The notes under the pieces: generated by a model
The model's database searches: none
What the model saw: the letters and a program-made list of their open reading frames with translations, nothing else
What the model was told of the DNA's origin: nothing
In this document: piece after piece, positions 1 to 4,053 of the stretch
How positions within the stretch are numbered: the stretch's first letter is position 1
Layout of the letters: each line of letters begins with the position of its first letter
Translations under genes and position numbers: made by a program
Source of the DNA: Agreia bicolorata
GTDB taxonomy: Bacteria; Actinomycetota; Actinomycetes; Actinomycetales; Microbacteriaceae
DNA: 64,000 nucleotides
Direction: 5' to 3'
Assembly (NCBI RefSeq): GCF_000938265.1
Contig: NZ_JYFC01000004.1
Span: forward strand, 186,001-250,000

Positions 1-44
1 CTTGAGGCGTGCTGCCGAAGACGGATATCTGTCGGACTGAAAGG

Positions 45-899
45 TCAGTAGGCCTGAGAGTCTTCGGCGGGTGAGGGAGTCACGTCGACCCCGCCGCTCA
101 ACCGGGCGATGGCCTCGTGGGGGTCGTAGTCGGGGTCGGGCTCGATGAAGGCGTCGACAACGCCCACAAAGCCGAGAGAAGCCAGCGACCATGGCTCCAG
201 AGTGTCGCCGGAGGGAATGTCGAGCGGGCGTTCGACCAGGGCGGGAACTGACGCGCGGATGAGGCCGAGGCCTTCGATCACTGCCGCGGCTGTGACGACA
301 AAGGGCTGCCAGTCGCCACCGAAGTGGGGTTTCAATCGGTATCCGACCGTGGGAATCACGTTGCGATAGAACATCTCCATCGTCTCGACGAAAGACATTT
401 CGCTTGCCAAGAGAGCATCAAGGGTGCGCTGCCTGCTGTCGGTCTCAGGGAAGGACATGATTGTCGCGGAGAGCCCCGCGTAGCTGCGCCATGCTCCGGT
501 TGCAGTGACCGCACCGAAGTTGTACTCCGCTGCTGTGCGGATGACATCGACGAGAACCTGCCGACGGCCGCTCGGTGAGAGCAGATCACCAGTTCGTGAA
601 CTCAGATACTGCCACGTAGACAACAGGGTCTCCGTGTCTGCGCGGTCGTCTCTCGCTTTGGCGGCCATCGCCAGGAACGCATCGTCGAGCAGTTCCTGTC
701 GACTGGGCCACGCTCGGTTGAGTTCCGATTTCGTGACCCCGGCCTTTTTAAGCATTGTTTCGAGAACGGCGTCATCAATGCCCAGAGTCAGGCCCGTCAA
801 CTCGATGTGTGACTGAATGATCGCAAGAAGATCCTGCCGTGACTTCGATAGACGATCCGGAATGGCAGCACCAGATGTCCCAAAACGCTTGTCGGCCAC
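45..899 (-). CDS. TetR-family transcriptional regulator
   Basis: A 284-residue protein with an N-terminal helix-turn-helix region of TetR type (roughly residues 20-70, including KKAGVTKSELNRAWPSRQEL) followed by a long helical ligand-binding part. It starts with GTG at 899, preceded by an AGGA-type ribosome site. It is transcribed away from the acyltransferase/E1-like pair beginning at 1105. TetR repressors usually control themselves and the divergent neighbour, so the inferred job is ligand-responsive control of that pair. The protein is longer than the typical 190-220 residues, which leaves room for a large C-terminal effector domain. The ligand cannot be read from the sequence. Confidence 0.8.
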   Translation of the reverse strand: MADKRFGTSGAAIPDRLSKSRQDLLAIIQSHIELTGLTLGIDDAVLETMLKKAGVTKSELNRAWPSRQELLDDAFLAMAAKARDDRADTETLLSTWQYLSSRTGDLLSPSGRRQVLVDVIRTAAEYNFGAVTATGAWRSYAGLSATIMSFPETDSRQRTLDALLASEMSFVETMEMFYRNVIPTVGYRLKPHFGGDWQPFVVTAAAVIEGLGLIRASVPALVERPLDIPSGDTLEPWSLASLGFVGVVDAFIEPDPDYDPHEAIARLSGGVDVTPSPAEDSQAY

Positions 900-943
900 G
901 TTGGTCCTGCTTCCCTCGATTCAGATCATATTCTACGCAGTTT

Positions 944-969
944 GCATATAACGAGGAGTCCTCATATGC
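944..969. promoter_or_regulatory. Dyad, candidate TetR operator in divergent intergenic region
   Basis: The 11-base perfect palindrome GAGGAGTCCTC (953-963) is flanked by GCATAT on the left and ATATGC on the right, giving a larger imperfect dyad. It lies between the TetR-type gene and the acyltransferase gene. On the minus strand a TAGAAT -10-like hexamer lies about 15 bases from the dyad, so a bound repressor could cover the regulator's own promoter. That it is the operator is inference from position and symmetry. Confidence 0.4.
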
Positions 970-1104
970 TCAGATCAGCCAGAGCGTTCTGCACCTTACG
1001 GGAGCAGCCCGGGGAGAGCCCGAGGCGATACACGGCGTGGTCGTGCTGAATGTTGGAGCGTGTTGTGGCTTTGGGTGTATTGCGTCGAATTTCTCTAGAC
1101 GCGG

Positions 1105-1887
1105 GTGACTATGTCGCGCATTGATCGCACCGTTTCGAACCAAGAGGTCATTCCTGTGGTCACGAATTCTCGGGTGTTCGCTGCGAGTCCGGAGTCGAGG
1201 TTGAGCGCCGGCATCCTCGCGATCGACGGACGCGCTGCAGAAGGTCTCGAGGCGGAGTATGCCGCTCACTTTCAACTTCGTCGTCGCGTCTACGTTGACC
1301 AGACCGCCCAGCTGGCCGCCGACGAACTCGACGAGGATGGTACGGACCGGGATCAGGATGATGCCCGCTCAGTGACGTTCGCCGTCTTCGAGCAGACGGA
1401 TGTCGGTGTGCGCATCGTCGGGGTGTCGCGGCTCATCGTCAGGGGCGATCGCCCGCTGCCGGTCGAGGAGTTCTGTCCCGACGCGTTCGGGGATCTTCCT
1501 TTGCGCGGCAACGACGTCGAGGTGTCGCGCGTGATCGCCCGCCACGAGAAGGCTGCGTTGCAGGATCTCGTGCAGTGGCAGCTGTTCGCACTGATGCTCG
1601 CCTACATCCCTCCCCATGGACTCGGGAGGACTTTCGCCATCATCGAGCCGTGGCTCGAACGACACTTGCGTGGAATCATCGCGCTCGAGCGCATCGGCGA
1701 CGTACGCTATATCGCCCACTATCTCGACTACAACGTGCCAATGGAGATCGATATCCCTGCCTCGACGGTGTGTGTCAATACTCGCAACGATTCCTTCATC
1801 GCCGCATTCCAGGCAGCCGAACCCGGGATGGCGTATTTTGGTCGGGTTTCCCGTCGCGCTTCGTCGCCACTCGAGGTCGACGCGTGA
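1105..1887 (+). CDS. LuxI/FeeM-like N-acyltransferase (autoinducer-synthase fold)
   Basis: A 260-residue protein of the GNAT-related family that includes LuxI homoserine-lactone synthases and FeeM N-acyl amino acid synthases. Visible signs are LRRRVYV (58-64), matching the R-x-x-V/F start of the fold, then an acidic stretch, a GVSRLIV strand, and EVSR (139-142), matching the conserved E-x-S-R of LuxI-type enzymes. Family members move an acyl chain from acyl-ACP or acyl-CoA to an amine. The GTG start at 1105 is uncertain; ATG at 1111 is an alternative. Its stop overlaps the start of the E1-like gene by four bases (GTGA), so the two are translationally coupled. The acyl donor and acceptor are unknown, and a plain acetyltransferase cannot be excluded. 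Confidence 0.65.
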   Translation: MTMSRIDRTVSNQEVIPVVTNSRVFAASPESRLSAGILAIDGRAAEGLEAEYAAHFQLRRRVYVDQTAQLAADELDEDGTDRDQDDARSVTFAVFEQTDVGVRIVGVSRLIVRGDRPLPVEEFCPDAFGDLPLRGNDVEVSRVIARHEKAALQDLVQWQLFALMLAYIPPHGLGRTFAIIEPWLERHLRGIIALERIGDVRYIAHYLDYNVPMEIDIPASTVCVNTRNDSFIAAFQAAEPGMAYFGRVSRRASSPLEVDA

Positions 1888-2825
1888 AGACGATCTCGTC
1901 GCCTGAGTTCTCGCGTAACTACGGCTTTTGGAGCGAGGCCGAGCAGGGCGCTCTGATTTCCAGTCGGGTCGCCATCGGAGGGGTTGGCGGAGATGGCTTT
2001 CAACTCGGAGTGAAACTCGCCCGTATGGGAGTCGGCTCGTTCAGCGTCGCCGACCCGGAGGTCTTCGAGGCAGAGAATGTCAACCGCGTGGAGGGGGCGA
2101 AAGCTTCTACGGTCGGACGCGCCAAGGTCGACGTCTTCCGTGAGGCGGTGCTCGATATCAATCCGGCGGCGAGGGTGGATGTCTGGCGAGAGGGTGTGAC
2201 TCGCGACAATACGGCGGAATTCATGCATGGCGCTCACCTCGTTTTCGACGAGTCCGAACTCACTCGTCCCGAGATCGGCACCATGATCGCTCGGCAGGCT
2301 CGACGGCAGGGAATCCCCGACGTTCTCGTCATGAATGTGGGATTCGCCGCCCAGGTCATGTCCTTCGCCCCTCGGAGCGCCTGGACCTTCGAGCGGTTCA
2401 TGGGCTTGTCCACCTCGGAGAACCTGGATCAGATCAGCGCCCGCAGTATCGACTTGAGTCGCTGCCTTCCCTATATTCCGCCGTACACCGATCTGCGCAG
2501 CCTCGTCACGCTGCAGGATGACAAAACAGGCGACGTATCGTTGCCTTCCATTTCGGTTGGCGTTGACATCGCGTCGGCGATCGGCTCCGTGCAGGCATTT
2601 CTGCACCTCACCCGCGGGGTCTCGTCGCGCAGGCGCAGGCAGCCCATATGGGCACCCCGGATGGCCTATGTCGATGCGTATGCTCTCAAGGCTCGTATCG
2701 TCAGGGCATCGAAGTCGACCCATCTGCGCCACCTCGCTGTCGCTGCGGTGCGGCAGAAGCTCAACCGGAATCCGCTGGCGGCGTACACGCCGGCCGACAT
2801 GGCCGCACGCCGCGAGGCATCCTGA
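1884..2825 (+). CDS. E1/ThiF/MoeB-like adenylyltransferase
   Basis: A 313-residue protein starting with GTG inside the stop of the acyltransferase gene. It carries the E1 core: a glycine-rich loop GGVGGDG (32-38), an acidic residue in ADPEV (D57), the ENVNR segment with the arginine finger (R68), a lysine (K81), and a late aspartate in VFDESE (D122). Family members adenylate a C-terminal carboxylate of a small protein or peptide, or a small molecule. Unusually, the protein has one cysteine (C194), so the four-cysteine zinc site of MoeB/ThiF is absent and C194 is the only possible thioester residue. No ubiquitin-like partner, E2 or JAB protease is encoded nearby. The substrate is unknown; a product of the coupled acyltransferase is a reasonable guess. 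Confidence 0.75.
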   Translation: MKTISSPEFSRNYGFWSEAEQGALISSRVAIGGVGGDGFQLGVKLARMGVGSFSVADPEVFEAENVNRVEGAKASTVGRAKVDVFREAVLDINPAARVDVWREGVTRDNTAEFMHGAHLVFDESELTRPEIGTMIARQARRQGIPDVLVMNVGFAAQVMSFAPRSAWTFERFMGLSTSENLDQISARSIDLSRCLPYIPPYTDLRSLVTLQDDKTGDVSLPSISVGVDIASAIGSVQAFLHLTRGVSSRRRRQPIWAPRMAYVDAYALKARIVRASKSTHLRHLAVAAVRQKLNRNPLAAYTPADMAARREAS

Positions 2826-2859
2826 GAACTATTCGGCAGTTTCGCCGATTGACTCGTGT

Positions 2860-2875
2860 TCGAATATGTGTTCGA
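2860..2875. promoter_or_regulatory. LexA (SOS) box
   Basis: The sequence TCGAATATGTGTTCGA matches the actinobacterial SOS box TCGAAC-N4-GTTCGA with one mismatch. It ends eight bases before the ATG of the radical SAM gene at 2884, so LexA bound here would block transcription or initiation. The mycobacterial homologue Rv2578c is, to my recollection, a LexA-regulated gene, which fits. Confidence 0.75.
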
Positions 2876-2883
2876 ATGTCTGC

Positions 2884-3978
2884 ATGCGGTGGAGTAGTCA
2901 GGCGATAGCGGTAACGGAGCCATCGGCTCTGCCCGGTCTGGCCAGACTCAACAATCTCGTGCGTTCGGTGCAGACTCCTGAGTTCGCCGGTGTCACGTTT
3001 CATGAGATCCTCGCGAAATCGGCTCTCAACAAGATTCCCGGCGAGAGCAAGGCTGTTCCTCACGGGTGGACCATCAACCCCTATCGGGGTTGCAGCCACG
3101 CCTGTGTCTATTGTTTCGCGCGGCCGACGCACACGTACCTCGACCTCGACGCCGGCGCCGATTTCGACGCTCAGCTCATCGTCAAGCTCAATGTCGCAGA
3201 CATTCTCGAGAAAGAGCTTCGGCGGCCGTCGTGGCAGCATGCTCCGGTGGCTCTCGGCACGAATACCGACCCGTATCAGAGAGCCGAGGGCAGATACCGA
3301 CTGATGCCGGGCGTTATCGCGACCCTCGCTCAATCGCAGACACCGTTCTCGATCCTTACGAAGGGCACTCTTCTGCGGCGAGACCTGCCGCTTCTGGTCG
3401 ACGCGAGTGCCCGTGTGCCTGTCGACCTGGCCATGTCGATCGCAATCTACGACGACGAACTGCAGCAGTCGATCGAACCGGGCACTCCATCAACCAAGGC
3501 TCGCCTCGCGACCGTCACAGCCGTGCGCGACGCCGGTCTCGATTGCAGCGTATTCCTTATGCCGATCCTGCCCTACCTCACAGACACGAAGGTGCATCTC
3601 GACGAGGCTTTGCGTCAGATTAAGGCGGCGGGTGCGACCACGGTTCTCTACACAGCGCTGCACCTGCGCCCTGGTGTCAAGACGTGGTTCTTCGAGTGGC
3701 TGCAGTCCGCGCACCCCGAACTCGTCGAGCAGTACGGGCGCATGTACTACGGCGCCAACAGCTATGCGCCGAAAGACTATAGAAAGTGGTTGGCGGCGCG
3801 CATCCAGCCGCTCATCAGGGCTCATGGCCTTCAGCGCGGCATCGAAGACGCCGCATCCGGCGGAATTCGCAGCTCGGCCATTGGGCGAAGCAGTCCTCGT
3901 CCGATTCCCGGGTCGACACCATCGGTGGGATCGATCATTCCCGAGGAGATCGACCAGGGGCAGCCCACCCTGTTCTGA
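2884..3978 (+). CDS. Radical SAM protein, Rv2578c family
   Basis: A 364-residue radical SAM enzyme. The 4Fe-4S motif C-x3-C-x2-C is C70, C74 and C77 in GCSHACVYC, preceded by the INPYRG segment typical of the spore photoproduct lyase-like/Rv2578c group. The ATG at 2884 gives the usual family N-terminus (MRWSSQA) and lies just past the LexA box; an in-frame ATG at 2866 falls inside the box and is less likely. The reaction of this family is not established; damage-inducible control and kinship to photoproduct lyases suggest a DNA-damage role (inference). The C-terminus ends in QPTLF, resembling a beta-clamp-binding peptide. Confidence 0.85.
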   Translation: MRWSSQAIAVTEPSALPGLARLNNLVRSVQTPEFAGVTFHEILAKSALNKIPGESKAVPHGWTINPYRGCSHACVYCFARPTHTYLDLDAGADFDAQLIVKLNVADILEKELRRPSWQHAPVALGTNTDPYQRAEGRYRLMPGVIATLAQSQTPFSILTKGTLLRRDLPLLVDASARVPVDLAMSIAIYDDELQQSIEPGTPSTKARLATVTAVRDAGLDCSVFLMPILPYLTDTKVHLDEALRQIKAAGATTVLYTALHLRPGVKTWFFEWLQSAHPELVEQYGRMYYGANSYAPKDYRKWLAARIQPLIRAHGLQRGIEDAASGGIRSSAIGRSSPRPIPGSTPSVGSIIPEEIDQGQPTLF

Positions 3979-4053
3979 GCTCTGTCGGCGACGGCGGCCG
4001 GGCGTTGCGTCGATCGGGTTTGGCCGGATGCGCGAGCAACTACCCTTGGATGC

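Follow-up and report, generated by a model that had tools for sequence, protein, structure and literature searches.

A conserved acyltransferase–E1 gene pair in Agreia bicolorata and its relatives: a desaturase-free variant of the FeeM–ThiF kind with exchangeable sensor genes

Acyl-oxazolones are made in bacteria by the OxzAB enzymes of Pseudoalteromonas rubra and by TyzABC and TrzAS, from mycobacteria and Rhodococcus. These sets join an acylase resembling FeeM/LuxI to an ATP-dependent, ThiF-like cyclase and a desaturase of the nitroreductase type (PMC10404671, PMC12856293). TyzB, OxzB and TrzS are reported to cyclise N-acyl aromatic amino acids (PMC10404671, PMC12856293), and the role of the bacterial oxazolones is called a major unresolved question; the ring of an oxazolone is opened by acid and by alcohols (PMC12856293). 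A related gene pair lies near the start of the window, the 64,000-nucleotide stretch of Agreia bicolorata DNA considered here (contig NZ_JYFC01000004.1, positions 186,001 to 250,000). Like the oxazolone sets, it places a FeeM/LuxI-type N-acyltransferase beside a ThiF-type, or E1-like, enzyme; unlike them, it has no adjacent flavin desaturase and is accompanied by a dedicated TetR-type regulator. The coupling of such an acylase with an E1 is already known, since the published oxazolone sets combine the two, as does a Desulfovibrio plasmid on which FeeM (5e-44), ThiF (3e-49) and nitroreductase (2e-8) are fused in one protein. The Agreia cassette is a new, desaturase-free variant of this FeeM–ThiF kind, with swappable sensors. 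Among the matches listed from the open-licence literature, no description was found of an E1 partner in bacteria of the Candidate Phyla Radiation (CPR), of a TetR-linked pair or of a desaturase-free version.

The acyltransferase gene (1111–1887, plus strand, 258 aa) and the E1/ThiF-like adenylyltransferase gene (1884–2825, plus strand, 313 aa) share the four nucleotides GTGA, in which the stop codon of the first overlaps the GTG start of the second. The TetR-family gene, whose product is a putative sensor or repressor of the pair (899–45, minus strand, 284 aa), diverges from them across a promoter region of 211 bases (900–1110). These open reading frames (ORFs) and their overlap are as described in the initial annotation of the locus. 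The acyltransferase ORF has two possible starts, 1105 or 1111, of which the ATG at 1111 seems the likelier because the alignment of relatives begins there. Across 18 loci including that of the window, the junction is a 4-nt overlap in ten and a 1-nt overlap in six, and in the remaining two the genes lie 4 or 11 nt apart, counts which rest on script-chosen starts.

The association of the two genes is strict. In 299 Microbacteriaceae genomes, searches with the E1 and with the acyltransferase profile each found 18 genomes, an identical set belonging to 6 of 85 genera, and the genes are adjacent with their order kept in all 18. A motif-based scan of named genomes, sharing some strains with that survey, gave 37 loci. 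In each of them an acyltransferase match immediately precedes the E1, though the match is incomplete in L074 and also in L051, where the contig begins. The loci cover Agreia, Leucobacter, Herbiconiux, Cryobacterium, Rathayibacter, three Saccharibacteria, Acetobacterium dehalogenans, metagenome-assembled genomes (MAGs) and an Uhrbacteria contig; the closest named locus to the window is that of Agreia sp. Leaf210, with an E1 87% identical. Elsewhere the genes are still paired in the reversed order (L143, L146), and in a Patescibacteria-type genome they are fused to encode a single protein of 551 aa (L142). The initial annotation had proposed a search for conserved co-occurrence and had held that rare adjacency would count against its reading; the pairing proved to be the rule.

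As a single query the window acyltransferase has no Pfam match, and it matches TIGR03694 (PEP-CTERM acyltransferase) only below threshold (1.2e-5); its Uhrbacteria relative matches FeeM at 1.3e-14. A 26-sequence profile of the family has N-acyl-homoserine lactone (AHL) synthases as its best matches in the PDB (BjaI at 6e-14, then TofI, RpaI, LasI and EsaI). The structure predicted from a 25-member alignment (predicted local distance difference test, pLDDT, 92; predicted template modelling score 0.89) gave Foldseek matches in the PDB of which the first 18 are all AHL synthases or FeeM, ordinary GCN5-related N-acetyltransferases (GNATs) appearing only from 2e-5. Invariant in the alignment are R57, D81, D84, R107, I109, P117, E137, S139 and R140, and we equate R57, D81, D84, R107, E137 and R140 with the catalytic signature of LuxI. 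By predicted fold and residue signature the enzyme can be assigned to the LuxI/FeeM type, as had been proposed initially. It shares both fold and R/D/D/R/E/R signature, the latter presumably equivalent to that of LuxI, with the LuxI AHL synthases and the N-acyl amino acid synthase FeeM, and differs from them in having some 40–50 additional N-terminal residues and an E1 partner. No LuxR is present among the window genes annotated.

The E1 matches PF00899 (ThiF) at 1.5e-23, in agreement with its first description as an E1-like adenylyltransferase. Among NCBIfam models, PRK08223, PRK14851 and PRK14852 outscore ThiF and MoeB, all of them below cut-off. The nearest solved structure in a profile search is TcdA (4e-17), the tRNA threonylcarbamoyladenosine dehydratase, an enzyme which uses ATP to close a ring on a threonine that carries an N-acyl group (the threonylcarbamoyl group); TcdA works on tRNA, however, and in the tree its long branch stands apart from the window E1. 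The GxGGxG motif, D57, N65-x-N67-R68, K81 and D122 are retained in all 18 close relatives, and in a wider set of 24 E1s N65, R68 and K81 are invariant whilst D122, which we presume to be the adenylation residue, is kept in 20. Neither the 18-row nor the 24-row alignment contains an invariant cysteine. A tree of 29 rows groups the window E1 with sequences from Saccharibacteria, Acetobacterium, Rathayibacter and MAGs in a clade of 11 (100/100). The MoeB, ThiF and TcdA of E. coli fall outside (96/92; long branches flagged), and the core clade is separate from the single FeeM–ThiF–nitroreductase fusion included; OxzB, TyzB and TrzS are not among the rows. Two mundane identities had been named at the outset as contrary outcomes: a routine acetyltransferase is ruled out by the precedence of AHL synthases and FeeM over GNATs in the fold matches, and a lone MoeB or ThiF relative by the NCBIfam scores and the tree.

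No desaturase is fused to the window pair or lies beside it. A query made from the desaturase domain of Desulfovibrio (D. vulgaris) matched two of 24 pair-bearing genomes, both times away from the pair. The only sizeable match is that in G014 (6e-17, 31% over 157 residues); the other is in G155 (8e-4). The G014 match (L154 4627–5898, minus strand) is a 423-aa Acg-like protein of the nitroreductase family with, by eye, a Tat-type (twin-arginine translocation) N-terminus. PF00881 nitroreductases of some kind occur in 20 of the 24 genomes; the four in which none was found, their completeness not being stated, are those of L071 and of the three Saccharibacteria. PF00881 matched all 14 control genomes, and the desaturase-domain query was run without a positive-control genome.

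The usual third partner of the pair appears, from the neighbouring genes, to be a sensor, of a type that varies by lineage. This variation and the absence of a desaturase go beyond the initial annotation. In Microbacteriaceae the partner is the TetR gene, which adjoins the pair divergently in 17 of the 18 genomes and lies beside it in 28 of the 37 loci of the named-genome scan. A same-strand membrane histidine kinase gene follows 26–96 nt after the pair in each of nine loci with a supported acylase (L063, L065, L066, L071, L142, L143, L144, L146 and L147), chiefly Patescibacteria-type, three of them Saccharibacteria and L071 a MAG; L142, L143, L144, L146 and L147 came from a phylum search around L063 in which 9 of 332 genomes matched. 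Support for the acylase means a tblastn, profile or Pfam match, and is modest and based on small sets in L143 (4e-7), L144 (5e-5) and L147 (1e-11). Outside this count are L148 (FeeM below cut-off) and L149 (acylase not in view, the contig beginning a short way before the E1), each of which has a kinase; so is L145, which has a PlsC-type acyltransferase and no kinase. Including all three gives 11 of 12, and L153 was dropped for want of usable gene calls. The kinase is retained whether the order is acylase–E1, E1–acylase (L143, L146) or a fusion (L142). The seven-transmembrane sensor domain PF16927 passes cut-off in L143, L144, L146 and L147 and is just under it in L142; it is not reported for the L063, L066 and L071 kinases, and the L065 kinase, which runs off its contig end, was not scanned. 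CheY-like receivers occur at most kinase loci (by Pfam at L063, L143, L146 and L147, by eye at the rest). Across twelve genomes of this kind, some 10.2 Mb in total, HATPase_c was matched 74 times, gyrase-type proteins probably counted in, which is less than 1% of genes at roughly one gene per kb, so that the adjacency of the kinase is far above chance, kinship allowed for.

A further arrangement is found in another actinobacterial family, of which three of 11 genomes (G346, G333 and G358) bear the pair. Membrane GGDEF–HD proteins adjoin it, or lie one small ORF away, in all three loci (L150, L151 and L152), against a genome-wide background of 12, 19 and 14 GGDEF matches (45 in 7.3 Mb); in L151 the acylase gene is convergent with that of the E1 and in L152 it lies 0.6 kb from it. 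It has been noted that trzAS also adjoins cyclic-di-GMP genes (PMC12856293). For the CPR, 18 pairs of a LuxI homologue with a sensory kinase are reported in an earlier study, possibly overlapping with the present loci; there the homologues are read as AHL synthases, and ThiF appears nowhere in the main text (PMC7567580). With an E1 partner, the product of these CPR LuxI-like genes need not be a homoserine lactone.

Tentatively, and without calling it probable, we favour the view that the three genes are a self-contained signal cassette, in which a product derived from an N-acyl amino acid and probably cyclised is sensed by the neighbouring receptor. The acyltransferase would make an N-acyl amino acid, and the E1 would use ATP to adenylate its free carboxylate, leading to self-closure into a saturated five-membered ring (an azlactone, or a lactone or lactam should a side chain attack) with no desaturation step to follow. 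The product or its precursor, perhaps released from the cell, would be the ligand of the divergent TetR, which would control the pair and perhaps further genes. In relatives, either a membrane histidine kinase, as a rule accompanied by receiver proteins, or membrane GGDEF–HD proteins would take the place of the receptor. Gamma-butyrolactone and avenolide systems pair a synthase with a TetR receptor, and the window likewise has a divergent TetR beside a possible lipid-signal synthase, although the synthase chemistry differs and the fold match of the window TetR to AvaR1 is weak (2e-3). The 'acylated signal or metabolite' suggested initially remains the best guess. The signalling role is supported as a hypothesis and not as a demonstration; with a conserved sensor beside a desaturase-free pathway, it is directly testable in culturable Agreia, Herbiconiux and Leucobacter.

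A wider proposal, which we consider rather unlikely, is that LuxI/FeeM–E1 pairs constitute a separate class of cell-to-cell signalling system, a desaturase-free branch of the oxazolone type employing a ring-closed N-acyl amino acid and interchangeable receptors. On this proposal Microbacteriaceae would read the signal with a TetR protein, Saccharibacteria and further ultrasmall bacteria with membrane histidine kinases, and the other actinobacterial family with membrane GGDEF–HD proteins. Since the E1s of Saccharibacteria and Microbacteriaceae are close kin, a signal may be common to ultrasmall epibionts and actinobacterial hosts.

Several observations weigh against a cyclised signal sensed by its neighbour. 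TyzA and TyzB without the desaturase TyzC gave no detectable cyclised intermediate (PMC12856293), and a desaturase-less pair may therefore stop at the N-acyl amino acid or yield something else. G014 does hold its Acg-like nitroreductase-family protein, albeit 1.9 Mb from the pair. Asp122 is not kept in four of the 24 sequences: L071, L152 and the second E1 of L067 have Asn at this position, and L144 has Glu, so that some relatives may be altered or inactive; two of these E1s sit in the core clade (L071 and the second of L067) and three belong to the counted sensor loci (L071, L144 and L152). No adjacent sensor was found in L067, L072 and L074 (three of the 15 loci outside Microbacteriaceae, L074 being a 5.1-kb contig) nor at the Rathayibacter locus. 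The operator proposed for the window is unconvincing. Finally, adjacent sensors could merely switch the pair on upon an unrelated cue.

The strongest competitor keeps the chemistry and drops the signalling: the product would be a lipid or antibiotic, acyl-oxazolone-like or of the N-acyl-amino-acid type, used in stress or competition, and the TetR or kinases would do no more than regulate its output. We place this account on the unlikely side, though well short of negligible. TetR regulators often govern biosynthetic or efflux genes, and the second TetR paralogue found in 14 of the 18 pair genomes, which is without an obvious regulon, also speaks for it. So does the fact that the known oxazolone pathways have no demonstrated signalling role (PMC12856293). 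On the other hand, where neighbours were annotated a sensor is the third gene met most consistently, and its type depends on lineage; in Microbacteriaceae this annotation covers five window genes, and a shared transporter farther out is possible.

A true AHL analogue in place of an azlactone would suit the LuxI signature of the acyltransferase: the E1 would here turn N-acyl homoserine or N-acyl diaminobutyrate into a lactone or lactam. We judge this improbable. LuxI itself needs no E1, S-adenosylmethionine supplying the leaving group. A distant ThiF and GNAT operon on a Rhizobium etli plasmid lends the idea some substance, in that its annotated diaminobutyrate transaminase and acyl-CoA ligase could supply diaminobutyrate and acyl-CoA; the genes just 3' of the window pair, however, are not such supply genes, and the Rhizobium acylase matches the acyltransferase family only weakly (1.6e-7 in a 10-protein set; FeeM below cut-off). 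The Rhizobium row (plasmid pRetIE4771a, L176 3803–10352) contains the ThiF gene and the weakly FeeM-like acyltransferase, an alpha/beta hydrolase, a drug/metabolite transporter (DMT) family protein, the annotated transaminase and the long-chain acyl-CoA ligase, with a LysR-type gene divergent. This row might yield an acylated diaminobutyrate, perhaps as a lactam counterpart of AHL, and points to the possibility of other amino acids and of lactam rings.

Activation of a protein or peptide by the E1, in a minimal ubiquitin-like, CBASS (cyclic oligonucleotide-based antiphage signalling system) or microcin-like system, is highly improbable. The protein is a member of the E1 superfamily, and the E1–E2 models of PADLOC match its shared domain (1.8e-14), but these matches span only about 45–125 of its residues. 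Furthermore, an invariant cysteine is absent from both the 18 and the 24 E1 sequences, and the partner is LuxI-type in all 18 and all 37 loci. As to ubiquitin-like, E2 or JAB neighbours, the two genes 3' of the E1 encode a radical-SAM protein of the Rv2578c family and a thymidine kinase, and those upstream of the TetR gene are not annotated. All three systems are disfavoured, for want of an invariant cysteine and of neighbours that would support them, and the missing cysteine likewise disfavours the idea in the initial annotation that the enzymes might 'tag something'. The combination of enzymes, which that annotation could match to none of the ubiquitin-like or CBASS systems it knew, does have known relatives in the published acyl-oxazolone route, with its FeeM-like acylase and ThiF protein. 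Two unrelated housekeeping enzymes brought together by chance, to which we give almost no credence, are refuted by the co-occurrence in the same 18 of 299 genomes, the unbroken adjacency in both surveys, the L142 fusion and the pairs kept in reversed order.

The regulator appears from profile and fold comparisons to be a divergent TetR. It matches Pfam TetR_N weakly (0.08), whilst a 17-member profile matches TetR proteins in the PDB (4jl3, 5e-6); its model has a mean pLDDT of 77.6, with just one of five models above 55, and gives weak Foldseek matches, those listed being TetR-type (AvaR1, 2e-3). The profile matches 22 of the 299 Microbacteriaceae genomes, namely the 18 with the pair and four others, all in the genus of G045. 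In G045 itself the matches are paralogues only, away from the pair, and some genomes of its genus have two such TetR genes adjacent, also where the pair is absent. Second family members lie elsewhere in 14 of the 18 pair-bearing genomes (L160, that is G000:C1:440765-441544, and L161–L172). They were considered as pointers to a regulon and set aside, the neighbourhoods in the 13 paralogue stretches being uninformative; in two (L167, L169) the gene caller lost the paralogue.

The dyad initially noted between the divergent genes is weak. This imperfect repeat (944–969) has 11-nt arms 82% complementary; scored by the best palindrome of the region, it is no better than shuffled sequence (P 0.84), and it is eroded in the nearest relative, L021. 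As an operator it is not significant. The sequence TTGRGAC-N5-GTCYCAA is common to 13 Herbiconiux-like loci and is the top palindrome of the region in 12, a different one scoring best in L031. The shuffle P of single Herbiconiux-like loci ranges from 0.00 to 0.42. The arms match in seven of the 13 (in L052 with both arms changed); because one arm position is unmatched in the other six, this candidate operator is suggestive at best. In Leucobacter L048 the palindrome is TTGGTACATCGTACCAA (P 0.31).

The distribution of the cassette points to horizontal spread: it is scattered across phyla, the window E1 is 52–57% identical to those of Saccharibacteria, and high-scoring presence in the Acetobacterium order is confined to one of 67 genomes. 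In that order the profile A7 (24 E1 rows) matched 34 of the 67 genomes at 1e-30 and Acetobacterium alone below 1e-100; the remaining matches, at 9e-38 or weaker, are mostly partial, in frames of about 225–270 aa, and look like ordinary E1s, so that A7 at 1e-30 is not specific. The G+C content of window positions 1–4000 is 0.612, compared with 0.632–0.675 in the other 4-kb blocks, which is in line with a foreign origin. Judged by its genes and their distribution, the acylase–E1 cassette would be a small, conserved and mobile set in soil and plant bacteria.

Six phage records matched the E1 query, none covering 80% of it, as did 43 plasmid records, one covering at least 80%. An acyltransferase is present in three of the five plasmid loci inspected, fused in Desulfovibrio, adjacent in Rhizobium and one IS256-family transposase gene away in Rhodococcus, where the transposase gene lies between those of the acyltransferase and ThiF (L076 5846–8729). 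None was listed or found at the Bdellovibrio and Staphylococcus plasmid loci. Staphylococcus accounts for 14 of the matching plasmid records, and on a Staphylococcus epidermidis plasmid (L177 2826–4632) the ThiF-family gene overlaps an annotated aspartate carbamoyltransferase gene, with a major facilitator superfamily transporter and an ArsR-type regulator near. Acetobacterium dehalogenans (L067 8313–13905) has two E1 genes and three for acyltransferases, one of which is divided between two frames, all arranged around a DegV-family protein, a family known for fatty-acid binding. At L145 (9265–11812) the Patescibacteria-type E1 has no LuxI-like partner; a PlsC-type acyltransferase, identified by Pfam, adjoins it, and a phosphopantetheinyl transferase and a carrier protein were recognised by eye beside the E1.

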